A stretch of DNA of 64,000 bases from a virus. Below, one piece after another: positions 7,837-62,714 of the stretch. The translations under genes and the position numbers were made by a program. Where the stretch lies: IMG/VR virus record IMGVR_UViG_3300046167_000869, positions 1 to 64,000 of that record. One strand, given 5' to 3'. A model generated the notes under the pieces. That model was not told the DNA's origin. It ran no database searches and saw only the letters and a program-made list of their open reading frames with translations. Position 1 is the first letter of the stretch. Every line of letters begins with the position of its first letter.

Positions 7837-7850
7837 TGAGCCATAATAGC
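7824..7850 (+). repeat. 27-bp exact repeat at fibre-cassette starts
   Basis: The sequence spanning the ribosome-binding region and first codons here recurs exactly at 9448-9474, ahead of another member of the same fibre-protein family. Similarity continues for about 90 bp into both genes, giving a recombination handle between cassettes. Confidence 0.85.
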
Positions 7851-8465
7851 GCCAAAGTGAACACTCAAGAGCCCAATCGTCAAGGCGTCGTGACTCAAGC
7901 GCTCGGAGACTTGAGCGATGTGAGCGCGAGCTCTCCAAGCGCTGGGCAGGTCTTGGTATATGCATCGGGCGCTTGGGGTGCGGGAGCTGCGGGGGCGACA
8001 GGTGGTATTATCAACATCGGTTCAGGGGAGAGTAACGCATACTCAAACTCTGGAGCGTCGAGCATCGCCACCAATGTAGATCTTTTTTTCTATGATACCT
8101 CGCCGACAAACTCCATCAGCGGGGCTACGATCAACAATGTAGGTGCGACGGATTGGGTTTCTTCGGTAGAGCTCCCCGTTGGCGATTACATGATATGGGT
8201 GCGCTTTGGGGCTGAGTTCAGCTCTACGGGTTATCTCGGTTTCGCGGTCTATGACTCGGCTAATGTGGTAAAAAGTACCTATGCGATGATCGGCGCTAAC
8301 ACCACAGCGTATCATTTCCCCCCGAGTGTGCTGCAAGCGCGCGTGTCCCTCACGGCGACCACTACTCTTAAGATTCGTGGGTTCCATTCGTTGGGTGTTG
8401 ATAGCGTCGGGAATCAAGGCGACACTCCCGCTGAGTTTAGCCAGTGGACTATTGTGAAAATATGA
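7836..8465 (+). CDS. Fibre-tip family protein 1, shared N-terminal anchor
   Basis: The start giving MSHNSAKVNTQEPNRQGVVT is preferred over an earlier ATG because all four family members begin with this block and it forms a TAATG junction with the long fibre gene. The anchor ends QALGDLSDV and is followed by a GQVLVYASGAW motif. The C-terminal domain (residues about 60-209) is beta-rich, with a pattern (FFYDTSPTNSISG then WVSSVELPVGDYM) shared with family member 3. I infer a variable receptor-binding or fibre-decorating module on a constant anchor. Confidence 0.75.
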   Translation: MSHNSAKVNTQEPNRQGVVTQALGDLSDVSASSPSAGQVLVYASGAWGAGAAGATGGIINIGSGESNAYSNSGASSIATNVDLFFYDTSPTNSISGATINNVGATDWVSSVELPVGDYMIWVRFGAEFSSTGYLGFAVYDSANVVKSTYAMIGANTTAYHFPPSVLQARVSLTATTTLKIRGFHSLGVDSVGNQGDTPAEFSQWTIVKI

Positions 8466-9073
8466 GCCACAACAGTAATAAGGTGAACGCTCAAGAACCA
8501 AACCGACAGGGCGTCTTGGCTCAAGCGCTAGAAGACCTGAGCGACGTGGGCGCACTCGGCGCGTCTGAGGGTCAGGCTTTGGGATGGGGCGCAGGTCCCA
8601 CGCTCGCCGCGATAGACGTGCATGGTAACTACGATATAGCCGGATCGTTTTGGATATCGGGGGGCGGTTGGGGCGGCTCATACGCTTACAGTGTGGGCGA
8701 CGCTGTAATCTGGCGTCAAGGAAGCGCGACGATCACGGCCGACGCGAGTCGGCTCACGTTTCAGGGCGGAACATGGATCAGCCAATTCACCCTACAGGCG
8801 GGTACATATTTACTAAAGTGGGACCTACCATTTAGCCCATCGGCGGCTTCAGCATACGCCGTAATCAGGCTCAAAGACATCACGAACAATCAATACATAG
8901 GCCCCAAGGTTAAGATCGGTGATGGCCGATCATCTAATCACTTAATGTGTGTGGTCGCGCCAACCGCGGCAACCACCTACAATTGGGAAGTTATCGCAAA
9001 AAATGGAACGATTGCATTACCCACCGCCACCACACTGAGATCACTACAAGCGGCATTTATAGAAGAGGTATGA
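8462..9073 (+). CDS. Fibre-tip family protein 2, shared N-terminal anchor
   Basis: It begins MSHNSNKVNAQEPNRQGVLA, then QALEDLSDV, matching the anchor of its neighbours; the ATG overlaps the preceding stop as ATGA. The C-terminal domain differs from members 1 and 3. It contains a glycine-rich stretch (SGGGWGGSYAYSVGDAVIW) and a beta-rich segment ending AAFIEEV, with AGTYLLKWDLPFSPSAAS resembling jelly-roll fibre heads in style only. No enzyme motif was seen. Likely a virion surface protein. Confidence 0.72.
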   Translation: MSHNSNKVNAQEPNRQGVLAQALEDLSDVGALGASEGQALGWGAGPTLAAIDVHGNYDIAGSFWISGGGWGGSYAYSVGDAVIWRQGSATITADASRLTFQGGTWISQFTLQAGTYLLKWDLPFSPSAASAYAVIRLKDITNNQYIGPKVKIGDGRSSNHLMCVVAPTAATTYNWEVIAKNGTIALPTATTLRSLQAAFIEEV

Positions 9074-9074
9074 C

Positions 9075-9425
9075 ATGTTCGTAACGGTAAAATTTCTAAC
9101 GGCACCGCCCGCGGGTACTCTCGTTTGTCACGACGCAGACAATGTTTGGCGAGCCGCCACCCCAACAGATGACGCCCCCCTCGGTGTCCTAAGCAGAGAG
9201 ACAACGCTCGACGATGACGGGGTACGATGGGGAGAAGTTACCCTAGCGGGGGCGGCGTGGGCGCGAGCGGGGGCGGCGATACCCGCTCAAGGGGGTTGGC
9301 TTAGCGTGGATACTGAGGGGCGCGCAATCGTGGCACCATCTGAAGACTGTGGCCTAATCGCTCCTCTATCTCGCGGCGCGACAGCTCCGAGCGTCGATGA
9401 CTTAATTATGATTTGGGTGCGATGA
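9075..9425 (+). CDS. Small cap-like protein following a fibre cassette (116 aa)
   Basis: The product is beta-rich (MFVTVKFLTAPPAGTLVCHD; GVLSRETTLDDDGVRWGEVT) and ends LIMIWVR. It resembles the 125-aa protein encoded at 10742-11119 in size, in position after a fibre-tip gene, and in the pattern AxxPAxGGxxxxDxxGRxxxxxS. A ribosome-binding GAGG lies 7 bases before the ATG. I infer that it pairs with the preceding fibre-tip proteins, as a cap or decoration. About 30 bp of apparently noncoding sequence follows. Confidence 0.65.
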   Translation: MFVTVKFLTAPPAGTLVCHDADNVWRAATPTDDAPLGVLSRETTLDDDGVRWGEVTLAGAAWARAGAAIPAQGGWLSVDTEGRAIVAPSEDCGLIAPLSRGATAPSVDDLIMIWVR

Positions 9426-9459
9426 TGCGCGTACACGACACAAGAGAGGAGATCATCTA

Positions 9460-10077
9460 ATGAGCCATAATAGCAGTAAGGTGAACACTCAAGAACCGAA
9501 TCGTCAAGGCGTCGTGGCTCAAGCGCTGGATGACCTGAGCGACGTAAATATAACATCGATCTCATCAGGCCAAGCGCTGGAGTATGACGGGGCGCAATGG
9601 GTCAACTCCGCCAACGCGATCACGGTAGGCTCAGTGTTCTGCGGTGAGGGAGCCTCTCAGAACTACTCGACATCTAGCGCGAGCGGGGTGACCAATGGGG
9701 ATGTCGTGCAGTTCTACGCAGCATCACCCCACAACTCCCTAAGCGCGACAATCACTAGCGCGAGCAATTGGGTAAGCGCTGTGACTGTCCCTGTCGGAAC
9801 TTACCGCGTCTCTGCGCTCGTTGCGCTGACCTTTAGCTCAGCTGGAAGCGGTGAGTATCGCGTCCACAATGGGGGGACGGCTGTGGGCTCGACAGGGACA
9901 TACGCGCAAGACGACGCGGATTGTACGAGCATCGCTACGGCAATTATCACTGTCACAAGCGGAACAGCTGTCATAGATGTACGCTTAACGTCTCAAGCTA
10001 ATAACGTCAACACGATCGCTAACCAAGGCTCTCGGCACGCTGAGCTAGGATATCTGATCATAGATCGGTTAGCCTAA
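9460..10077 (+). CDS. Fibre-tip family protein 3, shared N-terminal anchor
   Basis: It begins MSHNSSKVNTQEPNRQGVVA, QALDDLSDV, with the same GQALEYDGAQW motif after the anchor. The C-terminal half aligns by eye with member 1 (VVQFYAASPHNSLSATIT, then NWVSAVTVPVGTYRVSALVA), so this pair shares a head fold. The 27-bp region around its start codon is identical to that of member 1. The stop overlaps the next ATG as TAATG. Confidence 0.75.
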   Translation: MSHNSSKVNTQEPNRQGVVAQALDDLSDVNITSISSGQALEYDGAQWVNSANAITVGSVFCGEGASQNYSTSSASGVTNGDVVQFYAASPHNSLSATITSASNWVSAVTVPVGTYRVSALVALTFSSAGSGEYRVHNGGTAVGSTGTYAQDDADCTSIATAIITVTSGTAVIDVRLTSQANNVNTIANQGSRHAELGYLIIDRLA

Positions 10078-10745
10078 TGAGTCATAACAATATCATTGTG
10101 AACGACCAAGCGCCGAATCGTCAAGGCGCGATTACCCAAGCGCTCAGTGACCTGAGCGACGTCGCGTCGGGTGCCTCTGCTGATCAAGTCCTAGCATGGG
10201 GCGGGTCTAGTTTTGGGGGGGTGGTCGCAGAGAACGCGGTCTGTATTTTAGAGCCCGTTGGGACGGGGGAGCCCGCCAACGCGGGGGTGTATAATCCCGC
10301 GTTGGAGAACGGGTGGTTCTTTTCTGCGCGCACCGTGGGAGCAACCGGAAACATGATCGCGTCAACAACGGACTCAGACTTTGTATCTGTCTCTTCGAGG
10401 GTCTTTACGGCGTCCGCTCAATACCTTGAGCACCTAACGCTAAGCGCTGGATACGTCTATCAGATCCACCTGGAAATGTGCATCGGCGGGAACTCCGACG
10501 CGGGAGCCTCCATTGAGGTGCAGTGGCAAGACGGCGCAGGCAACGCGCTAGGCCCACGGGCTTTCCTTCGCAAAAAAGGCGAGAATCGCACACCGATCAA
10601 AGGCGTGATAGATCTCACCTCGGCAGGCGGAGATACAGACGTGGGACTCCAGCGCGTGGGTAGTGGTGTACAAGGTAACGCGCGGTACATTCTAACAGTG
10701 GATGATCTTCAACAATTCAACCTAAGTGTAAGGATTCTATCATGA
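10077..10745 (+). CDS. Fibre-tip family protein 4, shared N-terminal anchor
   Basis: It begins MSHNNIIVNDQAPNRQGAIT, QALSDLSDV, the most divergent anchor of the four. The C-terminal domain is unlike members 1 and 3 and contains LEHLTLSAGYVYQIHLEMCI and ASIEVQWQDGAGNALGP. The TGA overlaps the next ATG. The gene order tip-tip-cap-tip-tip-cap suggests duplication of a three-gene block. Confidence 0.72.
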   Translation: MSHNNIIVNDQAPNRQGAITQALSDLSDVASGASADQVLAWGGSSFGGVVAENAVCILEPVGTGEPANAGVYNPALENGWFFSARTVGATGNMIASTTDSDFVSVSSRVFTASAQYLEHLTLSAGYVYQIHLEMCIGGNSDAGASIEVQWQDGAGNALGPRAFLRKKGENRTPIKGVIDLTSAGGDTDVGLQRVGSGVQGNARYILTVDDLQQFNLSVRILS

Positions 10746-20059: not shown

Positions 20060-20120
20060 TCTCTCTCTCTCTCCTGCTTTAAGGTGAGCGTTCACCCTTG
20101 ATTAAAGGAGAGAGAGAGAT
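20059..20120 (+). promoter_or_regulatory. Hairpin sequestering the nrdJ ribosome-binding site
   Basis: The CT tract at 20059-20074 is complementary to the GGAGAGAGAGAGAT containing the Shine-Dalgarno sequence and start of nrdJ (20107-20120): 14 pairs plus TTTAA/TTAAA beyond a small bulge. Inside it is a second hairpin, AAGGTGA with TCACCCTT around GCGT. Folded RNA would hide the start site, giving a possible translational switch for the reductase. The GA-rich Shine-Dalgarno style is used elsewhere in this phage, but only here is a complementary CT tract placed in front. Confidence 0.55.
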
Positions 20121-20667
20121 GATAGGGGATTTTGTATTTAAGCTGAAATACGCGCGTTATAATTCCGAGGCGAAGCGGCGCGAGACGTGGGGAGAAGCCG
20201 TTGAGCGGTATTGCCAGATGCACCGCGACAAGTACGGCGCGGAGACAGTCGGCGCGCTCATCGAGGACGTAAGACCCGCACTGTTAAGGCGTGAAATTCT
20301 ACCCTCCATGAGAGGGTTACAATTTGGCGGAGACGGTATACTTAATAAAAACATGAGGTTATACAACTGTACATCCTCATACGCAGACCGCCCGCGATTC
20401 TTTGCCGAGGCGTTATGGCTCCTCTTATGTGGCTCAGGTGTGGGATTCAGCGTGCAGCGTCACCACGTCGCGCGGCTTCCCTCAATCCGAGAGCCTATCT
20501 CTAAAGCAGAGCACCTGATCACGGACAGTATCGAAGGGTGGGCCATCTCTGTGGATGCGCTCATGAAAGCATATACACAAGGTGGCTCTGAGCCCGTTTT
20601 CAACTTCTCACGCATCCGGCCCAAAGGATCACCGCTCAGCGTTGGAGGCGTCGCACCAGGGCCCTGA
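20119..20667 (+). CDS. nrdJ: Class II ribonucleotide reductase, N-terminal fragment
   Basis: The fragment matches the N-terminus of B12-dependent (class II, monomeric-type) ribonucleotide reductases: KRRETWGEAVERYCQMHRDK, LPSMRGLQFGG, MRLYNCTSS with the first active-site Cys near residue 82, LLCGSGVGFSVQRHHV and SIEGWAISVDALMKAY. The frame stops at GGVAPGP because of one extra C in GGGCCC; the shifted frame continues as EPLKEALEGVRAILRRAIG. The ATG after GGAGAGAGAGAG is preferred to the upstream TTG. The enzyme makes deoxynucleotides independently of oxygen using adenosylcobalamin. Confidence 0.88.
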   Translation: MIGDFVFKLKYARYNSEAKRRETWGEAVERYCQMHRDKYGAETVGALIEDVRPALLRREILPSMRGLQFGGDGILNKNMRLYNCTSSYADRPRFFAEALWLLLCGSGVGFSVQRHHVARLPSIREPISKAEHLITDSIEGWAISVDALMKAYTQGGSEPVFNFSRIRPKGSPLSVGGVAPGP

Positions 20668-20905
20668 ACCCTTGAAGGAGGCGCTAGAGGGCGTGAGGGC
20701 CATTCTACGCCGCGCGATAGGGCGACAGCTCACACCGCTAGAGGTCTTTGATGCTACAATGTACCTTGCCGACTGCACGCGGACAGCAGGCACGCGACGA
20801 AGCGCGACCATCGCGCTCTTCTCGGCTGATGATCAGGAGATGATGAACGCTAAAACAGGGGAGTGGTATGTCACGCACCCGAAGCGCGCAAGAGCCAATA
20901 TATCC
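20661..20905 (+). CDS. nrdJ: Class II ribonucleotide reductase, middle fragment
   Basis: In a shifted frame this stretch reads EPLKEALEGVRAILRRAIGR, TPLEVFDATMYLADC, RRSATIALFSADDQEMMNAK and THPKRARANIS, the expected continuation of NrdJ. It is open on either side only through frame changes at about 20664 and 20902, where C runs appear one base too long and one base too short. It has no start of its own and is listed so that the reductase can be reconstructed. Confidence 0.8.
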
Positions 20906-22106
20906 TGCCGTGATCACCTCAGAGACGCCACAAGAGACATTCAGGGAGCTGATCAAGAGCACGCGCGAGTTCGGCGAGCCGGGGTTCTTATTCCTCGAAT
21001 CTACAGAGCACTGCGTCAACCCTTGTGTAGAAATCATCATGGCCCCTGTATTGATACGCGCTCCAAACAGGCAGATAGCGCAGAAATACACAGCAGAGCT
21101 ACTCGATCCCGCGCGGCGCGCAGAGTGGGAAGCTCAAGGATATTCTTTTGAGAGTGGGTGGCAAGCGTGTAATCTCACTAGTGTGAACGTGAGCGCATGT
21201 GAGACACCCGCAGATCTTGCAGAGGCGACGCGCCGCGCCGCGATACTAGGCACCCTTCAAGCAGGTTTCACAGACGCCGGATATTTAGGCGCCGTCAGCC
21301 GTAGGATCATTGAGCGCGAGGCGCTCTTAGGGGTTTCTCTATGTGGTGTGCTCGACCGTCCCGAGGTCACGACAGACACCGCACTAGAGCAAGCGGCGCG
21401 CGCAGCGGTAGAGGCGAACACCTCAACAGCTCAGGTGATCGGAATCAGACCCGCCGCGCGCGTGACATGCGTCAAGCCTGAAGGGACATCTAGCTTAGTG
21501 CTAGGCTCCTCAAGCGGGATTCATCCCGCGCACGCTCAGCGCTATCTTAGGCGTGTCCAGTGCTCCACATTAGAACCTGTATTCAACCATTTTAGAGCGG
21601 CCAACCCGCAAGCGGTAGAGCCTAGCGCGTGGGGCTCAGATTATTGTGTGATCTTCCCTATGAGCGCGCCCGAAGGCGCTCTAACTAAAAATGATCTCAG
21701 CGCGCTAGAGATGTTAGAGCAAGCGCGCAGAGTCAAAAAACACTATGTGAACTCAGGCACCGCGCGCCCAGAGAGCCTAGAGGGCGCCTCACATAATGTA
21801 AGCCTCACTGTGAGCGTAGATGTAGACGAATGGTCAGAGGTCGAGGACTACTTATGGTCTCACCGCTCCGACTTCACAGGCGTTTCACTACTAGCGAGCT
21901 CAGGGGATTATGATTATATACAGGCGCCGCTACAGGGAGTGAGCCCTGACATGGAAGGTGACGACCAGCGCCGCGCTTGGGAATTATGGGAGATGTTAAG
22001 TGGGACGATGAGCCCCGTGGATTATGACAATCTAAATGAAGAGACAGACGTTACAGCGCCGCTTGCTACCGAGGCGTGCGCGGGTGGACAGTGTGAGCTA
22101 AGGTGA
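20868..22106 (+). CDS. nrdJ: Class II ribonucleotide reductase, C-terminal fragment
   Basis: True coding sequence begins near PAVITSETPQETFRELIKST; the residues before it are out of frame. NPCVEIIM carries the thiyl-radical Cys and the catalytic Glu. Further blocks are ACNLTSVNVSACETP, VTCVKPEGTSSLVLGSSSGI and HYVNSGTARPESLEGASHNV. The end ACAGGQCELR supplies the C-terminal cysteine pair that re-reduces the active site. All catalytic elements are present, so the enzyme is probably functional once the two indels are corrected. It is coupled to the helicase by GTGA. Confidence 0.88.
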   Translation: MSRTRSAQEPIYPAVITSETPQETFRELIKSTREFGEPGFLFLESTEHCVNPCVEIIMAPVLIRAPNRQIAQKYTAELLDPARRAEWEAQGYSFESGWQACNLTSVNVSACETPADLAEATRRAAILGTLQAGFTDAGYLGAVSRRIIEREALLGVSLCGVLDRPEVTTDTALEQAARAAVEANTSTAQVIGIRPAARVTCVKPEGTSSLVLGSSSGIHPAHAQRYLRRVQCSTLEPVFNHFRAANPQAVEPSAWGSDYCVIFPMSAPEGALTKNDLSALEMLEQARRVKKHYVNSGTARPESLEGASHNVSLTVSVDVDEWSEVEDYLWSHRSDFTGVSLLASSGDYDYIQAPLQGVSPDMEGDDQRRAWELWEMLSGTMSPVDYDNLNEETDVTAPLATEACAGGQCELR

Positions 22107-22921
22107 GTATCACGCGCTTGAGCGTAGACCGCCCGCCACTCTTCACCGCGCGCAACCGCCGCGCATGGACAACGGGCGGCGAGGCGCTCAAGCGCTTAGG
22201 TGTAGCCCGCGCGCTAGGCTATGCATCAAGCTCACTGATCTATGTAATGAACCGCGCCGATGACCTCCAAGAGCTCAGCGCGGATGAAGAGGCGCAGCTT
22301 AGCGAGGGGATAGGCCGCCTCTCTGATTTATGGGCGAGGTGGACGGCGCAAGAGCGCGAGGAGTTCTATCACACGTTCCTAGACACGGCTAGACAGCCTC
22401 ATTTCGAGCGGCCCTACTCAGAGCCCAAAATCTACATCCCAGATCACCCGCGAGGAATGGAAGAGATGAGGCGCCGAGAGTGGGCGCCGCACCCTTACCA
22501 AGCGCGCGCTGTACAGTTCGCGCTAGAGCGCCCGCGCTCAGTGCTAGCGCTTGAGATGGGGCTCGGTAAAACGCTTATCGCGCTGATGAGCTATCACCTA
22601 CTCAAAGCGCGCGGAGAGCTCAGGCGCGTGATCATCGCGGCCCCGAAGAGCGCGCACGCATCTTGGAGAGATCACCTGGAGCTATCAGATGCTCAGATTC
22701 ATGTGTTGACGTCACAGCCCCCAGACAAGCGCGAAGAGATCTACACAGCGCTCTATCACGGGCAGTTAGAAGGCGTGCTGATCACACCGCAGACACTCGC
22801 GATAGACCGGAGCTATTTTAAGAAGCTCATGAGCCTTGAGCCTTATCTCTTGGTAGCTGATGAGGTGCATAAATTCAAAGCGCCGCAAGGGATAAACGGC
22901 CTTATGTTTTCAAGAGCTTAG
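22103..22921 (+). CDS. SNF2-type helicase, N-terminal ATPase fragment
   Basis: Starts at GTG overlapping the nrdJ stop. After about 130 residues of unassigned sequence come PHPYQARAVQFAL (Q-like motif), LEMGLGKTLIALM (Walker A, near residue 150), IIAAPKSAHASWRDHLE (Ia) and LLVADEVHKFKAPQG (DEVH, near 252), the order of SNF2/superfamily 2 ATPases. The frame ends at LMFSRA because of one extra T in a T4 run; the shifted frame reads FQELSKSAARVIGLTGTP. These enzymes translocate on duplex DNA. Phage versions may remodel host proteins, or help replication or anti-restriction. Confidence 0.85.
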   Translation: MSITRLSVDRPPLFTARNRRAWTTGGEALKRLGVARALGYASSSLIYVMNRADDLQELSADEEAQLSEGIGRLSDLWARWTAQEREEFYHTFLDTARQPHFERPYSEPKIYIPDHPRGMEEMRRREWAPHPYQARAVQFALERPRSVLALEMGLGKTLIALMSYHLLKARGELRRVIIAAPKSAHASWRDHLELSDAQIHVLTSQPPDKREEIYTALYHGQLEGVLITPQTLAIDRSYFKKLMSLEPYLLVADEVHKFKAPQGINGLMFSRA

Positions 22922-22937
22922 CAAGAGCGCCGCGCGC

Positions 22938-23312
22938 GTGATAGGGCTCACAGGCACGCCGAAGCCCAACGCCGTTGAAGACTTCTATCATGTGATTGAT
23001 CGGGTAGACCCTAACAGACTAGGAGACATCCAAGAGTTCACCGCGCGTTACACCTACCGCAAGCTCGCTCAATATGACTCGATCAGAGGCCCACAGTATG
23101 AGATGGGAGCGCTGAGAGGAGACATGTTAGGTGAGCTCTATGAGCGTCTTAGAGATACCCTCTTCACGCGCAACACCTCAGACCCCGACGCTCAACTAGA
23201 CCTACCCCCACGCGAGGATCTAGCGCCCTACATCGCACCGGATGAGAATCAGCGCGAGCTCATGAAGCAGCTAGTGGAGATGCAAGGCGGCGCGAGAGCT
23301 CAACGCGAGTAG
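22938..23312 (+). CDS. SNF2-type helicase, middle fragment
   Basis: Reads VIGLTGTPKPNAVEDFYHVI (motif III region), then the SNF2-like inter-lobe segment (RYTYRKLAQYDSIRGPQYEM, TLFTRNTSDPDAQLDLPPRE). It ends where the true frame continues as KAARELNASSYREALEGARG, implying an indel near 23282. The predicted ATG is internal to the real protein and not a genuine start. Confidence 0.8.
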   Translation: MIGLTGTPKPNAVEDFYHVIDRVDPNRLGDIQEFTARYTYRKLAQYDSIRGPQYEMGALRGDMLGELYERLRDTLFTRNTSDPDAQLDLPPREDLAPYIAPDENQRELMKQLVEMQGGARAQRE

Positions 23313-23355
23313 CTACAGAGAAGCGTTAGAGGGCGCGCGAGGTTTCAAAAACAAA

Positions 23356-24123
23356 GTGGCAGCAGAGGGCGCGCCTAAAACATCTCAGGCGCTCGGGATG
23401 AGACTTGAGCAACTCACGATATCACCCGCGATCTTTAGCGAGACCTTCAGCGTCGAGGCGCCGAACTACGAGAGCCCTAAGCTGAGATGGATCATAGATA
23501 TGGTGCTACGCTATCTCGCAAAGGACGAGACACACGCGGCTGTGATTTTCTGTGAGTACATCACAGGGCTCACAGAGGCGCGTAAAGCGTTGATCAGGCG
23601 AGGGCTCAAGAGCTCAGAGATCGACATCTACACAGGCGAGAGCTCAGAGAGCCAGCGCGCAGAAATGACACGCCGACTCAATGAAGGTGGCTCAAGAGTT
23701 CTACTCGGGCAGACCCGCGCGCTAGAGACAGGCGCCAACTTACAGAAGCGCGCCGCGATGGTCGCGCACCTCTCAACACCGTGGGCGCCGGACACCCTAA
23801 CGCAGAGCACCGCGCGAGTATACAGACAGGGACAGAAGCGCCCTGTAATCGTGCTGAGACCATCAGGATCAAGGCTCGAAGAGGCCAAGAACAAAGCGCT
23901 AACACGCAAGATCATGCAGAGCGCGAGCCTCACAGGAGCCCTAAGCGACGCAGACCGCGCAGTGATCGAGACCAGCGCAGATGAGCGCGTAAGGCGCGCG
24001 CACTCAAGATTATTAGAGCGTGGGGCCTATGATCTTGATACAATACACACACTTATAAAGTTAGAGGGAGATCATGAGCAGACTCAAGCTAACAGGGCGC
24101 GCGGATCAACTAGCCCGCCCTGA
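23356..24123 (+). CDS. SNF2-type helicase, C-terminal fragment
   Basis: Contains the second RecA lobe: AAVIFCEYITGLTEARKAL (motif IV), IYTGESSESQRAEMTRRLNE, RVLLGQTRALETGANLQKRA (motif V) and LTQSTARVYRQGQKRPV (motif VI arginine finger). The GTG start is an artefact of the frameshift. Joined, the helicase would be about 670 residues across 22103-24123. Its 3' end overlaps the next gene by 50 bp. It lies between nrdJ and a run of large head-region proteins, an unusual place for a helicase unless it is injected with the DNA. Confidence 0.83.
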   Translation: MAAEGAPKTSQALGMRLEQLTISPAIFSETFSVEAPNYESPKLRWIIDMVLRYLAKDETHAAVIFCEYITGLTEARKALIRRGLKSSEIDIYTGESSESQRAEMTRRLNEGGSRVLLGQTRALETGANLQKRAAMVAHLSTPWAPDTLTQSTARVYRQGQKRPVIVLRPSGSRLEEAKNKALTRKIMQSASLTGALSDADRAVIETSADERVRRAHSRLLERGAYDLDTIHTLIKLEGDHEQTQANRARGSTSPP

Positions 24124-50937: not shown

Positions 50938-51401
50938 TGGCCGCGCTCAGGATCATCACAGCGAGTCTTCTGCTCATCCTTATCTCACTTTCCCTGAGAG
51001 CGTGCAGCGCACCGCCGCCGCGCCTTCGTGATTCAGAGCCCAGCTATGAGGGTGAGGATGAGGACGAAGACCCCCGCGCCGTGGTAATGCGTGAGCTACT
51101 TGAGCTCAGGACTCAGACCCAGCGGAATCACGCTGAGATCATCTTTATGCGTCTTGATCTCGACCCCGCCAACGCTCTATTGAATGACGTGAGACCCGTC
51201 AGCGCCGCGCAATTCATCCAGCCCCTTACACCACACCCGGCTACACCACGCTTCCGCTTGAATAGGCAGATCAGGGATACAAGGCTGTATCCCCTTGAGC
51301 ATGAGCCGCGCGAGCTCATCAGCAGCGGAGGGCGCTTTCGACTCTTCAACCTCACAGATAATCTCATCATGAATAAAGAGCACAGGCTTAGCGCCGAATA
51401 G
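50937..51401 (+). CDS. Lipoprotein, outer-membrane spanin-like (3' end uncertain)
   Basis: The N-terminus is a lipoprotein signal peptide (ALRIITASLLLILISLSLRA followed by C, lipobox LRAC), then a Pro-rich and acidic stretch (APPPRLRDSEPS; GEDEDEDPRAVV) and a helix. Placement after an i-spanin-like gene suggests the o-spanin. The last 225 bp lie antisense to the polymerase gene, which is suspicious. A +1 shift near 51150 would end the protein at 51183, almost meeting the polymerase stop at 51177, so the true C-terminus is probably shorter. Confidence 0.55.
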   Translation: MAALRIITASLLLILISLSLRACSAPPPRLRDSEPSYEGEDEDEDPRAVVMRELLELRTQTQRNHAEIIFMRLDLDPANALLNDVRPVSAAQFIQPLTPHPATPRFRLNRQIRDTRLYPLEHEPRELISSGGRFRLFNLTDNLIMNKEHRLSAE

Positions 51402-51800
51402 CGGGCTTTTTGGCTCCATCCACGCGGCGCGCACCACGTCAAAGAGCGCGCTCTTAGCTCCATCTGCAACGAGTCCTTGGAAATAGGTATTAGCGCCGTC
51501 CGTGAACCCCACGCCACCGCGCCTGCGGGCGCTGTGATGTTGGATGATATGGCCTACCCTGACACGCTCTTTAACGTGGTCAAAGTAGCGGCGCATCTCG
51601 GGCCACCGCGCGAACCATGCGCGTTTCAGCTCCTCGGCCTCATGCTCTGATATATCGAGTCCATAAGAGCCCCGCGCAAAACCTACCAGACCCTGCGCCC
51701 CTAAGCCTCCCGGTAAGCCCAAAGTTTGGCACCTTAGCGAGCTTACGCAGTTTGAGAATCTGCTTATCTTTTGAGGCTTTGAGCTCAAGCGCGCGCTCAT
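51177..51800 (-). CDS. Family A DNA polymerase, C-terminal fragment
   Basis: Real coding begins at LPGGLGAQGLVGFARGSYGL, the second half of motif B (the KxxNFG part ends the other fragment), and continues ISEHEAEELKRAWFARWPEM, RRRGGVGFTDGANTYFQGLV, ADGAKSALFDVV and motif C FIHDEIICEVEES, with the catalytic His-Asp-Glu. The residues before LPGG are out of frame. An extra G in the GGG of the NFG codon near 51722 explains the break. Confidence 0.85.
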   Translation of the reverse strand: MSARLSSKPQKISRFSNCVSSLRCQTLGLPGGLGAQGLVGFARGSYGLDISEHEAEELKRAWFARWPEMRRYFDHVKERVRVGHIIQHHSARRRGGVGFTDGANTYFQGLVADGAKSALFDVVRAAWMEPKSPLFGAKPVLFIHDEIICEVEESKAPSAADELARLMLKGIQPCIPDLPIQAEAWCSRVWCKGLDELRGADGSHVIQ

Positions 51801-53040
51801 AAGTCACGCCCGCGAGATCAGCGGCTAGAGCTAAGTGTAGATCTTGACCTTGTGATATGGCTTCCGCCATTTTAGAGGCTAGTCCTAAATTCAAGCACAC
51901 TTGAGCGAGCGCGACGAGCTCCGCCGTGGAGTAATCCGCGCCGATGTAAACGCACCCTTCACGCGGTCTAAAGCACTCGCGCACACCACCCTCTTGAGGG
52001 AGCTGCTGTAGGTTGGGCTTAGTACAGCTCGTACGACCGGTCCGCACTAACACATTCCAACGTGGGTTAAGCGGGCGCTCTGTCGCGCTCTGAATTACAG
52101 GGCCGAATGTGCCTGATAACTTGTCTAGTTTCAGCCACTTAGCGAGGCTCTCTAAGATAGGCTCGCCGCTCTCCTCCAATACCTCACCGGATGTTTGAAT
52201 AGCGCCTTTCTCGGTTCGCGGTGTGGCGTCTCCATAGCTCGCTTCAATTACCGCCTTAATCGCGCTCATGTTGCGTTTACCACCCTCTTTGAGCAGCCCA
52301 AAATCTACAAGCTCACGCTCAAGTTTAGCGCGCTTTGTAGTGAGCTCATCACGCCACGTCTCGACGCTCTCCGCGCTTGTCCTGAGCCCCCATAGCTCCA
52401 GATGATGGAGAGCCCACGCGGCGCGCGTCTGAGTGTGGAAGCTCGCGAGATAGCGATAAGGCGCGCGCGTGATGTGCTCCACGTCCATGAGCCGCGCTTG
52501 TTGGGCCTCGAAGATCTCATGAGTGATCCGCGCGTCTTCGAGCGCGTAATCTCTCGCCTCTGCTGACCATTGATCTAGCGGCGTGTCTAAGAGCTTTCCG
52601 TAGGAGTAGCGCGGTGAATTTGGGTCTAGTTTCTGAGAGCTGAGATCAAGACCTAGGAGACCTCGCGCGAGCTGAGCGAGGCTCACCCCTTGGGATATGA
52701 TAGGGCGCCCTATCTCGGGATGCTGAGACCATCCGTGATAGAGAGCCACTAAGCGCTCATGAATGCCTGTATCCCATATTCGCCCCTGATCATATAACCG
52801 CCATATACTCGCGGCTAAAGTGGGCCGGTGACGTATGACCACGGCCAAGTCAAATGCGATGTTATGACCGATGAGCCAACCTTGATCTAAGCGTATCCAT
52901 CGCTGTAATAAATCGCATCCTTCATCTGGATTTAAGAGCTGGTGTGCCTGTCCATCACTCGCGCTCATGCACGCCATTAAGGGTGCCTTGCGCCCCTGCC
53001 CTATAAGCTCGGTCTCACAGTCTATCGTTAAATTTTTCAT
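51640..53040 (-). CDS. Family A DNA polymerase, exonuclease and N-terminal polymerase fragment
   Basis: A 3'-5' exonuclease domain is clear: MKNLTIDCETELIGQG (Exo I DxE), LIGHNIAFDLAVVI (Exo II) and YALEDARITHEIF (Exo III). Polymerase motifs follow: RWNVLVRTGRTSCTKPNLQQ, motif A YIGADYSTAELVALAQV and LRKLAKVPNFG, where the frame breaks. No 5'-3' exonuclease domain is present. The intact gene spans 51177-53040 (about 620 residues), the usual size of a phage replicative Pol I. Its ATG overlaps the SSB-like stop as ATGA. Confidence 0.9.
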   Translation of the reverse strand: MKNLTIDCETELIGQGRKAPLMACMSASDGQAHQLLNPDEGCDLLQRWIRLDQGWLIGHNIAFDLAVVIRHRPTLAASIWRLYDQGRIWDTGIHERLVALYHGWSQHPEIGRPIISQGVSLAQLARGLLGLDLSSQKLDPNSPRYSYGKLLDTPLDQWSAEARDYALEDARITHEIFEAQQARLMDVEHITRAPYRYLASFHTQTRAAWALHHLELWGLRTSAESVETWRDELTTKRAKLERELVDFGLLKEGGKRNMSAIKAVIEASYGDATPRTEKGAIQTSGEVLEESGEPILESLAKWLKLDKLSGTFGPVIQSATERPLNPRWNVLVRTGRTSCTKPNLQQLPQEGGVRECFRPREGCVYIGADYSTAELVALAQVCLNLGLASKMAEAISQGQDLHLALAADLAGVTYERALELKASKDKQILKLRKLAKVPNFGLTGRLRGAGSGRFCAGLLWTRYIRA

Positions 53041-55932: not shown

Positions 55933-58512
55933 ATGATTCTAGGCGCTCTCCCTATCTCCTATTATCCCGCTCATCGAAGGTACGCGCCGCCGCGCGCGTG
56001 GCGACCCGGTGAAGCACACCCTAACTCAATGAAAACACTCGACTTTAGAGAAGCGCTCTCTAAGGATTGGTGCGCTGTCACTAACAACGCTCAAGAGGTC
56101 TGGCTCTACCCTCTCGCCGCTCAAGGCGGTGATGTCCTGAGACCTTCTAAGCAAGGCTCACCTGATATCATCAAGCGCGAGCTCAACATAGATCTCTTTG
56201 TCTCAGGTGTCCTGATCGACCTCGACGACCGAGGCGCCCACGGTGACGACTCGGCGCGCTCCGGCGAAGAGTTTTTTAACACGGTTGAGCGCGTGCTCAC
56301 TCCGCTGATGAGCCTGCCGGGTGCGTGTTATTATCGCACCTTACGCGGCGCGCGGGTGGGGCTCATCTTTGCTCAACCTGTAAATCTCGCGCTAGGTGAG
56401 CGCGCGCGGCGCGGGTTCTTTGCTCAAGTAGAGAGCATGTTTGAGGCTCATGAGTCTGTAGAGGTAGACCGCGCAAGTATCGAGGTTTCAAGAGGTTTCG
56501 CCGCTCCTATGATCTACAAGCGCGGTGAGCGGATCACAAGCGCTCAAGCTCAGCTCAGGCTACATGAGAGAGACACGCCTTACGCGTACATTGAAAAGCT
56601 CGCTGAGTATTGGACAGAACAGCTCAAACAAGTGAGCCAAAGCGCGGCAGACAGTGAGCGCCGACCGAAGGCGGCCCAGAGCGCGACAGCGCGGGAGGGC
56701 GCCGGAGGTCAAGCCGCACGCGCGCCGAAGGGGGATAAGAAACCGGCTGTGATCATCCCGCACGATCTACAGACACGCGAGCTTGACCGCTCGCAGGCAC
56801 ATGATCTCTTCAGAGGCTCAGTCTTCAAGCTCTCTCATTGGGTACAGGACGAGGCTCTGTTAAGAGACCTGAGCACCGTTCTAGATCGCCACCTATGCGC
56901 CGGTAGACGTGCCGAAGGTGGCGAGCTCACGCGCTACGTCGATCAGGCCCTAGACCTCGCGACCATCCACGAGGATGTACAGATAGCGGAAGGGATCGCA
57001 CCACCTACACCAGTTGACCTGCTCGATTTTCCCGAGCTTCAGCCCTTGCGCCGCGCCTTCTCAGCGCCTCTCGATGATCTCAAAATCGCTCAAGCCGTAC
57101 TCGAATCAATGGGCGATGAGCCCGCCCCGATATGGCATGGTGAAGGGCTCCGACGTTATGAGCATGAGCGCGGGATATGGCAGCTTTACAGGCCCAGCAG
57201 GCTAGAGCGCATCTTCCTCAAGTTGGAGGGCGCGCAGTACGAGAACGATAAAGGCGAGTGGCGCCCCATCGCGATCAACAACAAACTGATCACAGGAGGC
57301 GTCAAGATGCTCGCGAGCGTTAGCGGCGCAGGGGAGACCGAGACGCCGTTTGACAGCGCGCCTATGGGCGTGGTGTTAGGTGCACACTTTATCAGCGCGA
57401 GCTTGACAGGGCTCAAAGTACAACCGCGCGGGCCTCAGTTCTACGCGATTCACGCGCTTGATTATGAGCTCTCACCTCAACTGTTATCCTATTGGGAGGA
57501 TGAGGACACAGGCGCAGAGCCACGCGAGCCCACGACGTTTACGCGCTCATTCCTCGCGCGCTCTCTTTACCGCGCCCCAGAGGACGATGAGACAGAGCAG
57601 ACTATTAGAGACGAGATCAACGCCAAGATCATCACTATTGGTGAATGGTTAGGGCTCGCGCTACTCGGGATGTGCACACGCGAAGCTACCGCGCTTGTAG
57701 CACACGGTCCCGGCTCCAATGGCAAGAGCGTTTTAGCCTCTCTCATCTCTGATCTCTTCGGGGCAGAACGCACCGCGCACTTAGCGCCGCAGGCGATGAA
57801 AGAGCGCTTTAGTAGAGCTCAGCTCTTCGGCGCGGCTGTGAATGTGGTCTCTGAGATGCCTGAGTCTGATCTGTTAGAGTCAGACACTATCAAGGCCATG
57901 ATATCCGGTGACGCAATCACGGTTGAGAACAAAGGGGAGAAGCCATTTAGGATGATCCCTAGAGCCGCTCACTTTTTCGCGGCTAACACATTACCAGCGT
58001 CAAGAGATAGGTCTCATGGTCTATGGCGCCGGTTGATCCCTATCGAGTTCCATCACATCTTCACCCGCGCAGACAGAGACCCTGATCTGCTCGATAAGCT
58101 CAGGACAGAGTATGATTTACTCGTCCCGTGGGCGCTCAACGCGGCGCGTCAATACATCGAGCGCGGAGGCTATAAGCACCAAGACCACATTGAACAGTGG
58201 CGCGGTAAGTGGCGACGTGAGACAGACTCAATCAGCGCGTTCATTGACGCGCGCTGTGAGATGCTCACATCACCCCACGACGAAGACGCGCTAGACTCAG
58301 AGACCCTATGGCAGCGCTTCAGAACTTACGCTGAAGACGTAGGGCAGACAGGCGCCGCGCGCATGAGCCTTGTAGCCTTCGGGCGCTCTCTTGCCTCACA
58401 GCCGGATCTTATTAAAGCGCGCAAACGCAAGGGCGGGCGCCAACTGACATTCTACAACCTCAAACTCAAAGACACCGCGCCCCCGAAGCGCGACACATGG
58501 AGCATCCGATGA
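55933..58512 (+). CDS. Primase-helicase, AEP-like plus D5/SF3 helicase (859 aa)
   Basis: The ATG is preferred to the upstream TTG, which lies in the promoter. The N-terminal half has a possible archaeo-eukaryotic primase core (FVSGVLIDLDDRG, an acidic DxD; ACYYRTLRGARVGLIFAQPV). The C-terminal half has the superfamily 3 helicase of D5/P4 primases: EATALVAHGPGSNGKSVLAS (Walker A near residue 592), AAVNVVSEMPESDLLESDTI, MISGDAITVENKGEKPFRM, AAHFFAANTLPASRDRSHGL and WRRLIPIEF. It would unwind and prime the phage DNA. The stop overlaps the start of the thyX reading frame. Confidence 0.85.
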   Translation: MILGALPISYYPAHRRYAPPRAWRPGEAHPNSMKTLDFREALSKDWCAVTNNAQEVWLYPLAAQGGDVLRPSKQGSPDIIKRELNIDLFVSGVLIDLDDRGAHGDDSARSGEEFFNTVERVLTPLMSLPGACYYRTLRGARVGLIFAQPVNLALGERARRGFFAQVESMFEAHESVEVDRASIEVSRGFAAPMIYKRGERITSAQAQLRLHERDTPYAYIEKLAEYWTEQLKQVSQSAADSERRPKAAQSATAREGAGGQAARAPKGDKKPAVIIPHDLQTRELDRSQAHDLFRGSVFKLSHWVQDEALLRDLSTVLDRHLCAGRRAEGGELTRYVDQALDLATIHEDVQIAEGIAPPTPVDLLDFPELQPLRRAFSAPLDDLKIAQAVLESMGDEPAPIWHGEGLRRYEHERGIWQLYRPSRLERIFLKLEGAQYENDKGEWRPIAINNKLITGGVKMLASVSGAGETETPFDSAPMGVVLGAHFISASLTGLKVQPRGPQFYAIHALDYELSPQLLSYWEDEDTGAEPREPTTFTRSFLARSLYRAPEDDETEQTIRDEINAKIITIGEWLGLALLGMCTREATALVAHGPGSNGKSVLASLISDLFGAERTAHLAPQAMKERFSRAQLFGAAVNVVSEMPESDLLESDTIKAMISGDAITVENKGEKPFRMIPRAAHFFAANTLPASRDRSHGLWRRLIPIEFHHIFTRADRDPDLLDKLRTEYDLLVPWALNAARQYIERGGYKHQDHIEQWRGKWRRETDSISAFIDARCEMLTSPHDEDALDSETLWQRFRTYAEDVGQTGAARMSLVAFGRSLASQPDLIKARKRKGGRQLTFYNLKLKDTAPPKRDTWSIR

Positions 58513-59976: not shown

Positions 59977-60831
59977 ATGAGACCCCCGCTCACGCCCCGA
60001 ATGAGAGAGCGCCGGCTCACTATCGTTCTTCTCGATTTGATAGGCTCTACGGCTTTTGTGGAGCGTGTAGGGCCTATGCGCGCGGCGCAATGGCTCCAAT
60101 ATCATGATCGTCTTGCACGCGGGCTTATTTATCGCTATCAAGGACGCGAGATAGACCGCTCAGATGGTTTCCTGCTCAGCTTTGAGCGCCCCATTGACGC
60201 GCTCAATTTTGCGCTCGCGTATCAAATCCAGATCCCTCCAAAAACCTATCTGAAAACCCGAATTGGGATACACGTTGGCGCAGTCGTAGAGATTATACAA
60301 CATGAGCTCGATGTGATGATTGGTGTTAAACCCGTAGAGCTGGAGGGCATCTCAAAGAATATAGCCGCGCGCACTATGAGCTTATGTGGCCCCGGTCAGG
60401 TACTCTTGACCGAAGCCGCCTACAAAGCGGTGCGAGGGAGAGCTAACGCCCACACGCCCAGCGGCACGCGCTACGCGCTTGCAGGTCTCTACGCCTTTAA
60501 GGGCGTCGCAGAGCCTCAGATCATTTACACGGTAGGTGTCACCACGGAGAGCCTACAGCCTCCACTATCGACCGAGAAGGCGCGGCGCGTCGGGGGCCCG
60601 AAAAAAATCAAGAGCCGGCTCAGCCACATGAGAGCGCTAGAGCTCGCAGAGTGGGGCCTTTATCGCGCGGTAATGATCACCTCTATAATCTACCTCTATA
60701 TTTTCACAAGGTGGATCGCGCGACCATCAGCGCGGCGTTATTGGGGTATTGACCACGCCCCGTTTACATGGATTGATCATGTGAGTGAGGCGCTGCACTA
60801 CATCATTGAGACTCTGATTTCGGGAGGCTAG
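59977..60831 (+). CDS. Class III adenylate/guanylate cyclase-like membrane protein (284 aa)
   Basis: Residues 14-180 match the class III nucleotidyl cyclase fold: TIVLLDLIGSTAFVERVG (metal ligand Asp 20), EIDRSDGFLLSFERPIDALN (second Asp 63), RIGIHVGAVVEI, KPVELEGISKNIAARTMSLC with the transition-state pair Asn 128 and Arg 132, and GPGQVLLTEAAYKAV. Both metal aspartates and the Asn/Arg pair are present, so activity is plausible; the nucleotide cannot be predicted. A single hydrophobic segment (YRAVMITSIIYLYIFTRWIA) near residues 225-245 anchors it in a membrane. Cyclases are rare in phages. The next gene, 4 bp away, encodes a two-TM protein. Confidence 0.85.
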   Translation: MRPPLTPRMRERRLTIVLLDLIGSTAFVERVGPMRAAQWLQYHDRLARGLIYRYQGREIDRSDGFLLSFERPIDALNFALAYQIQIPPKTYLKTRIGIHVGAVVEIIQHELDVMIGVKPVELEGISKNIAARTMSLCGPGQVLLTEAAYKAVRGRANAHTPSGTRYALAGLYAFKGVAEPQIIYTVGVTTESLQPPLSTEKARRVGGPKKIKSRLSHMRALELAEWGLYRAVMITSIIYLYIFTRWIARPSARRYWGIDHAPFTWIDHVSEALHYIIETLISGG

Positions 60832-61345: not shown

Positions 61346-61463
61346 GAATGAGTGAAATGAGCGCGGCTGTTAAAAAATGCATTCAGGGTGTCTCGGGCTA
61401 AATGGTTTTGTAGCGCCGCGCTCTAAAGACAAATACCACACCGCAGAGAAGGAAAACAGAAAA

Positions 61464-61925
61464 ATGAAAACACAACACCTCAGAGCCCGCATGCGCCAAG
61501 CTCAGGCGCTCTCAGAGCTCAGCTCATGCACACGGCGCAAAGTAGGCGCGCTGATCCTCGACCCCAGTACGATGAGCATCATCTCAGATGGATATAATGG
61601 CCCGCCGCGCAAAGGCCCCCGTGCTTGTGGTGGTGATGTATGCCTACGTGATCAGCTCAAGATCAGGAGCGGAGAGCAACCCGCGCTAGGCTGCTATCAC
61701 GCAGAGCATAACGCAATCTTAAACGCCGCCCGACATGGCGCGCGGACATTAGGTACATTCATGATCTGTACAACAGCGCCTTGTGAGAGTTGCGCTAAGG
61801 CGATTTACCACGCGGGTGTTACTCACCTGTATGTGCCCGAAGACTCTTACACCACCGCCGCCGGTCTTGATTTCTTGGAATCTTACGGCGTTCAGGTTTC
61901 ATGTATTACCGTAGGTAATACATGA
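61464..61925 (+). CDS. dCMP deaminase (153 aa)
   Basis: Zinc-dependent deaminase motifs: GCYHAEHNAILNAARHG (His-Ala-Glu) and CTTAPCESCAKAIYHAGV (PCxxC), plus KVGALILDPSTMSIISDGYN and NGPPRKGPRACGGDVC, a region typical of phage dCMP deaminases. It turns dCMP into dUMP, the substrate of ThyX. The ATG after GAGAAGGA is chosen over the longer upstream frame. The 118 bp before it holds at most a 17-codon ORF (61348-61401) and is probably noncoding. Confidence 0.88.
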   Translation: MKTQHLRARMRQAQALSELSSCTRRKVGALILDPSTMSIISDGYNGPPRKGPRACGGDVCLRDQLKIRSGEQPALGCYHAEHNAILNAARHGARTLGTFMICTTAPCESCAKAIYHAGVTHLYVPEDSYTTAAGLDFLESYGVQVSCITVGNT

Positions 61926-61946
61926 TATTTGAAGAGTTGTCAAGGT

Positions 61947-62266
61947 GTGCAGGATGTGTGCAGGATGTGTGCAGGATATTTGCACCTATCCTGCACGGCC
62001 TATCACTTTGATATTGCTATAGTTTCTGAAGAGTGTGCAGGATGTGTAAGATAAATGACAACTCTTACATGAGAGTGCAGAGAAGAACGCTTCAGAAATG
62101 ACACAGTGACTCAGACACACAGCGTAAATACACACACATATATATAAAGAAATGCCAGATATCCTGCACATCCTGCACACACATAGAAAAGTGCAGAGAT
62201 ATCAAAGGGATAGACCGTGCAGGATGCCTGCATCCATCCTGCACACATCCTGCACACATCCTGCAC
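61947..62266. other. Large inverted repeat with 11 iterons, candidate replication origin
   Basis: Outer arms 61947-62014 and 62199-62266 are inverted copies matching at 60 of 68 positions; weaker symmetry continues inward to 62052 and 62161. GTGCAGGAT occurs 5 times (61947, 61958, 61969, 62035, 62217) and its complement ATCCTGCAC 6 times (61988, 62161, 62170, 62236, 62247, 62258). The outer three on each side have exact 11-bp spacing. A shorter inverted repeat lies in the centre (62023/62090), and TGACAACTCT at 62056 pairs with 61933 just outside. An AT-rich stretch (62126-62152) may melt. It contains no accepted gene. Confidence 0.75.
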
Positions 62267-62297: not shown

Positions 62298-62714
62298 ATG
62301 AACCCTAAACCCTATAGAGGCCCCCGCAGCTCACCACGCTCAAAGAGCGGGCCACCTTCAGAGGCCGATATACAGAAGGAGTTAGCGAAGGCGCTTGATG
62401 AAGCCGGCCTGTTATGGACAGCGACCGCCAACGGAGGCAAGCGAGACAAGCGAACAGCTGCGAGCCTCAAGGCGCAAGGGCTCAAGCCCGGTGTTCCAGA
62501 TGTGCTCATCTTCACTCCGCCACCTTCGGGGATCGGTTGCGGCATGGCTATTGAACTCAAGCGCGACGCCGGACAAGGCAAACAGCGCGGGCGACTCTCT
62601 CCACATCAACGGATATGGCTAGAGGAGTTACGTACGCTAGGTTGGAGAGCTGAAGTAGCGTATGGTCTCGACCATGCACTTGAGATTTTGAGAGCGGCAG
62701 GCTACAAAATATGA
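62298..62714 (+). CDS. VRR-NUC domain endonuclease (138 aa)
   Basis: Motifs of the VRR-NUC branch of PD-(D/E)XK nucleases: SEADIQKELAKALDEAGLLW (catalytic-core start), GLKPGVPDVLIFTPP (Asp), GMAIELKRDAGQGKQRGRLS (ExK) and HQRIWLEELRTLGWRAEVAY ending LDHALEILRAAG. Such phage nucleases are often involved in replication, recombination or packaging as structure-specific enzymes. The start follows AAAGGAGA. It lies directly beside the iteron region, so might act there, but that is inference. Confidence 0.8.
   Translation: MNPKPYRGPRSSPRSKSGPPSEADIQKELAKALDEAGLLWTATANGGKRDKRTAASLKAQGLKPGVPDVLIFTPPPSGIGCGMAIELKRDAGQGKQRGRLSPHQRIWLEELRTLGWRAEVAYGLDHALEILRAAGYKI

Follow-up and report, generated by a model that had tools for sequence, protein, structure and literature searches.

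A mirrored iteron array as the probable replication origin of an uncultured phage lineage with an SF3 primase-helicase

At the replication origins of simian virus 40 (SV40) and the papillomaviruses, an SF3 helicase assembles as two facing hexamers on inverted sites. The alpha protein, the SF3-type initiator of phage P4, has at its C terminus a winged-helix domain that binds the origin (PDB 1KA8). In Streptococcus phage Sfi21, an "origin of replication" is annotated directly past the primase gene, and the Rep helicases of Staphylococcus aureus pathogenicity islands (SaPIs) use their C-terminal domain to read iterons downstream of their own gene, apparently as two hexamers (PMC7581432). Here we describe an array of short repeated words at positions 61947-62266 of a 64,000-nucleotide stretch of viral DNA (hereafter the window; positions 1 to 64,000 of the 65,044-bp IMG/VR record IMGVR_UViG_3300046167_000869). 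Judged from sequence comparisons, the array is very probably a bidirectional replication origin of the P4-alpha/SF3-initiator type, with two SF3 helicase assemblies loading face to face. Origins of this kind are already known and the layout is not unique; with the array, a lineage of uncultured phages gains a probable origin.

The array comprises 11 exact copies of GTGCAGGAT in a mirrored arrangement, five on the + strand and six on the - strand. The + strand copies lie at 61947-61955, 61958-61966, 61969-61977, 62035-62043, and 62217-62225, the last in opposite orientation to the other sites of its arm; those on the - strand lie at 61988-61996 (again the opposite site of its arm), 62161-62169, 62170-62178, 62236-62244, 62247-62255, and 62258-62266. 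Measured from a mirror centre at ~62106.5, the offsets are about -156> -144> -134> -114< -68> on the left and +58< +68< +114> +134< +144< +156< on the right (>, forward; <, reverse). Ten of the 11 sites are paired by the mirror (P = 0.002 against shuffles of gaps and orientations), and the one unfilled mirror position, at about -58, is occupied by a twelfth, degenerate copy, GTGTAAGAT (62044-62052, + strand), just where the relatives and P4 predict a site. The sites at 61969-61977 and 61988-61996 form a 28-bp palindromic pair. Exact counting confirmed what the initial annotation had described, namely a 320-bp near-symmetrical inverted repeat with 11 iterons, 68-bp outer arms that match at 60 positions, symmetry reaching ~106 bp inward (86/106 matches), and outermost three sites spaced exactly 11 bp apart on each side.

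Where an iteron stands on both sides, 45/45 positions match, compared with 44/67 where it stands on neither. The central part matches at only 16 of 54 positions, and the longest ungapped mirror spans 121 bp at 79%. A check proposed in the initial annotation, a search for the same iteron elsewhere, showed that the 11 copies of GTGCAGGAT in the array are all those of the 64-kb window (0.45 expected in shuffles) and returned no second tandem pair in the whole 65,044-bp record. One short word, in multiple copies and within a single noncoding region, is a trait of P4-alpha/SF3-initiator origins. The annotation had also named an assembly artefact as a possible refutation; this is unlikely because the two arms have diverged from each other and the plan recurs, with other words, in relatives that come from other metagenomes.

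These relatives were retrieved through the VRR-NUC gene that follows the array and, in the more distant case of contig L067, through the deaminase gene. The VRR-NUC-found relatives have the gene order of the window as far as their contigs extend. Their arrays, upstream of the VRR-NUC gene, use other words: GTGTCAGAT in L010, GTG[TC]CACTT in L008, GGCGCA in L011, GGTGTCGA in L067, and a mixed GTGTGCAGGAT/GTGTACGGGAT set in L007, with an apparent partial array of GGTAACA in L033. Offsets and orientations are nearly constant, at about ±58, ±68, ∓114, ±134, and ±144. L010, all 14 of whose sites are mirrored, has -144> -133> -115< -67> -58> and +58< +67< +115> +133< +144<; L008 has ±68, ∓116, and ±134; L011 has ±56, ±64-66, and ∓106; and L067 has ±48, ±56, and ∓104. 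When gaps and orientations were shuffled, register with the window was significant for L010 (9/11 window sites with no shift; 0/4000 shuffles), L008 (6 window sites, no shift; P = 0.00025), L011 (8 window sites, shift allowed; P = 0.00025), and L067 (6 window sites; P = 0.03). With the words first chosen for L007 and L011, neither gave a significant mirror; use of the shorter core GGCGCA, and also the word-blind scan described below, brought out the plan clearly in L011.

An exact-word search of viral contigs returned eight contigs, and a comparable array was present only in L029, with a different geometry. L029, which encodes an integrase, an SSB, and an SF3 helicase, is either a phage or a satellite; a dozen AAGTGCAG words stand between its SSB and helicase genes (L029:4027-4264), partly mirrored and with other spacing.

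A search with the window primase led to phages with SF3-type primases, several of which carry arrays of the same plan. The annotated Sfi21 origin (word GTTAC) reads ... -89< -46> -38> | +39< +47< +92> ... around an AT-rich centre. A similar plan is found in Lactococcus phage 56701 and TP-778L, and the Javan601 satellite has -128> -120> -109> -86< -42> -34> | +42< +50< +93> +106< +116< +127<. After one shift, the six annotated type-1 repeats of P4 ori fall at -154> -144> -134> -112< -68> -58>, so that 6/6 superpose on the left half of the window array with ≤2 bp deviation. The two P4 crr copies, at +59< +68< +110> +121> +128> +143<, resemble the right half with additional sites. The window thereby has the site geometry of annotated origins (P4 ori at 6/6 sites, Sfi21 with the same plan). 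The inference of a replication origin in the initial annotation is supported by the spacing plan shared with the annotated Sfi21 and P4 origins and by the SF3 primase-helicase nearby; its remark that the mirrored layout is unusual was not upheld, the layout being common to several SF3-primase phages and satellites.

As a control for choosing words by eye, we scanned with a template of 12 site positions, derived solely from the window and P4, leaving the word unspecified. Scores are the number of sites found of 12, followed in brackets by the number of shuffles, out of 200, that did as well. The array was the top of the whole window at 11/12 (0/200), the next best place scoring 7. High scores were also obtained for L010 (10; 0), L011 (10; 0), Javan601 (11; 0), and Javan175 (10; 0), followed by 56701 (9; 0), TP-778L (8; 0), Javan644 (7; 0), and B025 (7; 0). 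Sfi21 scored 7 (1), the top of its 15-kb stretch and exactly at the annotated origin. L007 scored 7 (1), Javan60 7 (3), Javan387 7 (4), and PY9 6 (6).

The presumed initiator is encoded on the same element, another trait of origins of this type. It is an 853-residue primase-helicase of the DUF5906/SF3 class (55951-58512, + strand), with remote similarity to P4 alpha. Its families are DUF5906 and phage DNA-primase families; it matched the solved DNA primase 7ola (E = 2.6e-8) and, by profile, P4 alpha (E = 5e-9), in an alignment that extends into the P4 alpha C terminus. No relatives of the initiator were found among the genome contigs. The window and L008 use different words; their initiators share 94-100% identity in the helicase core and 22-51% in the last ~110 residues. 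The C-terminal part (58183-58509, + strand) is presumed to read the iterons, as in relatives. A PDB profile search with this part alone returned nothing useful.

Between the arms, right of the centre, lies a 26-bp stretch, TAAATACACACACATATATATAAAGA (62125-62150), that is the third least stable in the 64 kb at the 25-bp scale and is a candidate DNA-unwinding element. The AT-rich centre of the initial annotation holds for this stretch; taken whole, the centre has no strong AT bias. Sites set around an easily melted region are a further trait of P4-alpha/SF3-initiator origins, seen here in the mirror plan together with 62125-62150. A central element, ACTCTTACATGAGAG (62061-62075), is conserved in form in L007 and L010 and less well in L008.

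The spacers between the opposite word and the inner pair also carry a shared motif. The left spacer (61997-62034) contains CTATCACTTTGATAT, with TGA[AT]A 12 bp past the iteron, in common with P4 crr and others, and the right spacer (62179-62216) mirrors it with 76% identity; spacers are mirrored in L008 and L011 too. TGA[AT]A occurs in 10/23 spacers, mostly at a fixed position 12-13 bp past the iteron, against a chance of 0.02 per spacer; three lineages are covered, and spacers within one lineage are not independent. The spacer sequences read CACGGCCTATCACTTTGATAT in the window, CACCACCTATCACTCTGAAAT in P4 crr, CACACCTTAACTCTATGATAT in L008, ACACCCCTAAAGCATTGATAT in L010, and ACACCCCTAAACGCTTGATAC in Javan601.

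We propose that each arm would act as a six-site half-module made up of three tandem words ~11 bp apart, one opposite word, a spacer of ~45 bp with a TGATAT-like motif, and an inner tandem pair, ~10 bp apart, beside the centre. Two such half-modules would face each other across the ~116-bp centre with its easily melted stretch. The phage's own primase-helicase (55951-58512) would read the words through its C-terminal domain, and the spacing of the words would arrange the subunits into one helicase assembly per arm, the two being oppositely oriented. The easily melted stretch would then be opened and two helicases loaded on opposite strands, and replication would proceed in both directions, with primers supplied by the N-terminal primase domain of the primase-helicase. 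Binding, melting, loading, and the direction of replication are what we infer; we observe the sites, their symmetry, a geometry kept with changed words, the match to annotated origins, the helicase, and its fast-diverging C terminus.

Several observations weigh against an origin of this type or weaken its support. The primase gene lies 3.4 kb from the array and does not directly adjoin it, and an AlphaFold model of the initiator (5 sequences) had a mean predicted local distance difference test (pLDDT) score of 41.7, a confidence too low for the model to be used. Part of the scan template comes from the window, whose own score is therefore not an independent result, and scores were just 6/12 for L008 (19/200) and L067 (2/200). 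No such array stood near the primase in SF3-primase phages of Enterococcus, Vibrio, Arthrobacter, and Achromobacter, and the near-primase scan of Microbacterium, Achromobacter, Streptomyces, Enterococcus, Vibrio, Arthrobacter, and Escherichia phages gave no clear mirrored array. L007 still fits the plan only loosely. GC skew, which the initial annotation had proposed as a check, is a weak test here. The detrended cumulative curve bottoms out close to the record ends (around 60-65/0.2 kb) and peaks at 31.1 kb, so that total skew accords with replication starting near 62 kb and ending near 31 kb, but synonymous sites show no clean switch.

Other functions were considered for the same sites. The words could be operators of a phage repressor or activator, with a central promoter driving the VRR-NUC operon. 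In favour of such a regulatory region, the neighbouring genes all run rightward, the centre holds a TATATATAAAG stretch to the left of the gene downstream, and the central elements are asymmetric and conserved in form. Yet no rightward sigma-70-like promoter was found, promoter-like sites being as many as in shuffles in a scan limited to sigma-70; twelve mirrored sites over 320 bp far exceed a usual operator; and the geometry is that of the annotated Sfi21 and P4 origins. A terminator scan also gave chance-level results. We regard a purely regulatory role as improbable; regulation and origin function are not exclusive, and the origin may be regulated as well. Repeat arrays also mark the centromeres of plasmid-phages, and a large terminase gene lies ~6 kb downstream across the record ends, in an order seen in L008 and L010, which would suit a centromere-like partition site for a ParB-like protein or a packaging site for a small terminase. 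The array lies instead within a block of replication and nucleotide genes, its plan equals that of origins beside primase genes in unrelated phages, and inspection limited to a set of neighbouring genes turned up no recognisable partition gene. A centromere or packaging site is without positive support, and we consider it very improbable.

The inverted repeat itself might instead form a cruciform or be transcribed into a long structured RNA; a structured RNA had been among the suggestions of the initial annotation. When one strand is folded as DNA, a long and strong hairpin results (-94.5 kcal/mol; z = -15), and the spacers of the window, L008, and L011 add to the mirroring. Against this reading, G-U accounts for 5 of the 25 arm mismatches on one strand and 7 on the other, about the chance level, and no Rfam family reached its threshold (only plant microRNA hairpin models appeared, at 49.5 versus 245 bits). 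The symmetry outside the iterons is absent from L067, 56701, and Javan601 despite their kept site geometry, and P4 ori has no hairpin because it is one half-module only. To this reading we give the least credence of all, and a replication origin remains our preferred assignment.

Beyond this locus, a single spacing blueprint, the mirrored six-site half-module, may underlie the origins of SF3-initiator phages and satellites that are unrelated to one another and belong to different bacterial phyla, with the word exchanged freely together with the initiator C-terminal domain and with P4 ori and crr as its left and right halves pulled apart. We find this proposal as easy to doubt as to believe. 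The apparent novelty lies in a constant geometry that takes quite different words in distant phages and satellites, and in the likeness of P4 ori and crr to its two halves; the literature searched, which missed most subscription papers on the P4, SaPI, and Sfi21 origins, contained no description of the shared geometry. If the blueprint is true, origins of SF3-initiator phages could be found by spacing alone, with no need of the word; the frozen geometry would show where a pair of helicases sits on the DNA; the changing word and changing C-terminal domain would form a natural series on how initiator specificity changes; and the requirement of P4 for ori as well as crr in cis would have a simple structural explanation.

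The array occupies a 375-bp gap between a dCMP-deaminase-like gene (61377-61925) and the VRR-NUC nuclease gene (62298-62714, + strand), which directly follows it. A nuclease gene after the array is common to the window and the Sfi21-like phages; in TP-778L, PY9, and B025 the downstream gene is annotated as a Holliday junction resolvase. Just beyond the left arm, TTGTCAAG (61937-61944) recurs in L007, L008, and L010. A hairpin with 20-nucleotide arms and a 3-nucleotide loop (61891-61933) overlaps the end of the deaminase gene; it is kept in L007, L008, and L010 with altered stem sequence and is probably a terminator or an mRNA-end structure. At the left edge of the L008 array (L008:7300-7560), the deaminase gene end, the hairpin, and the first iterons are duplicated in tandem.

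Elsewhere in the window, a DNA polymerase I-like gene on the - strand (51177-53040) is divided into two overlapping frames (51177-51800 and 51640-53040); its counterpart in L103 is a single open frame (8557-10479), and we ascribe the split to a frameshift or a sequence error. Between 20098 and 24123, genes for a ribonucleotide-reductase-like protein (20098-22106) and an SNF2-like helicase (22103-24123) each fall in two or three open frames. The gene at 59977-60831 encodes an adenylate/guanylate cyclase domain, an unusual phage cargo, and has a close relative in the L006, L007, L008, and L067 records. Several adjacent proteins encoded at 7821-10745 share the near-identical start MSHNS.KVN.QEPNRQG and look like a family of exchangeable tail or host-binding proteins.

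Among known systems, the SV40 and papillomavirus origins differ from the window array in several ways: they belong to eukaryotic viruses, their helicase binds through an N-terminal domain, and their sites are different, and we claim no membership in that group. With the SaPI origins the window would share iterons recognised through the C terminus of a self-loading SF3 helicase (PMC7581432). The origins of Sfi21, TP-778L, and 56701 agree with the window in their mirrored short words, unstable centre, two tandem words beside the centre, and an opposite word ~45 bp further outward. They lie beside an SF3-type primase gene, and the TP-778L array is followed by a Holliday junction resolvase gene, comparable to the VRR-NUC gene of the window. 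They differ in their words (GTTAC, ATTACC, and TGTAAC), in the distance between inner sites (~75 bp, versus ~116 bp in the window), and in that the primase gene adjoins the array, whereas it is 3.4 kb away in the window. P4 resembles the window in that ori corresponds to the left half and crr is similar to the right half, in its remotely similar initiator, and in the spacer CCTATCAC...TGAAAT present in both; its halves are ~5 kb apart, crr is doubled, and the word is GGTGAACA, while the halves of the window are joined as a mirror image. The SaPI and Javan origins have other words and belong to satellites rather than to a 65-kb phage, and in Javan601 the full 12-site mirror plan of the window is present.
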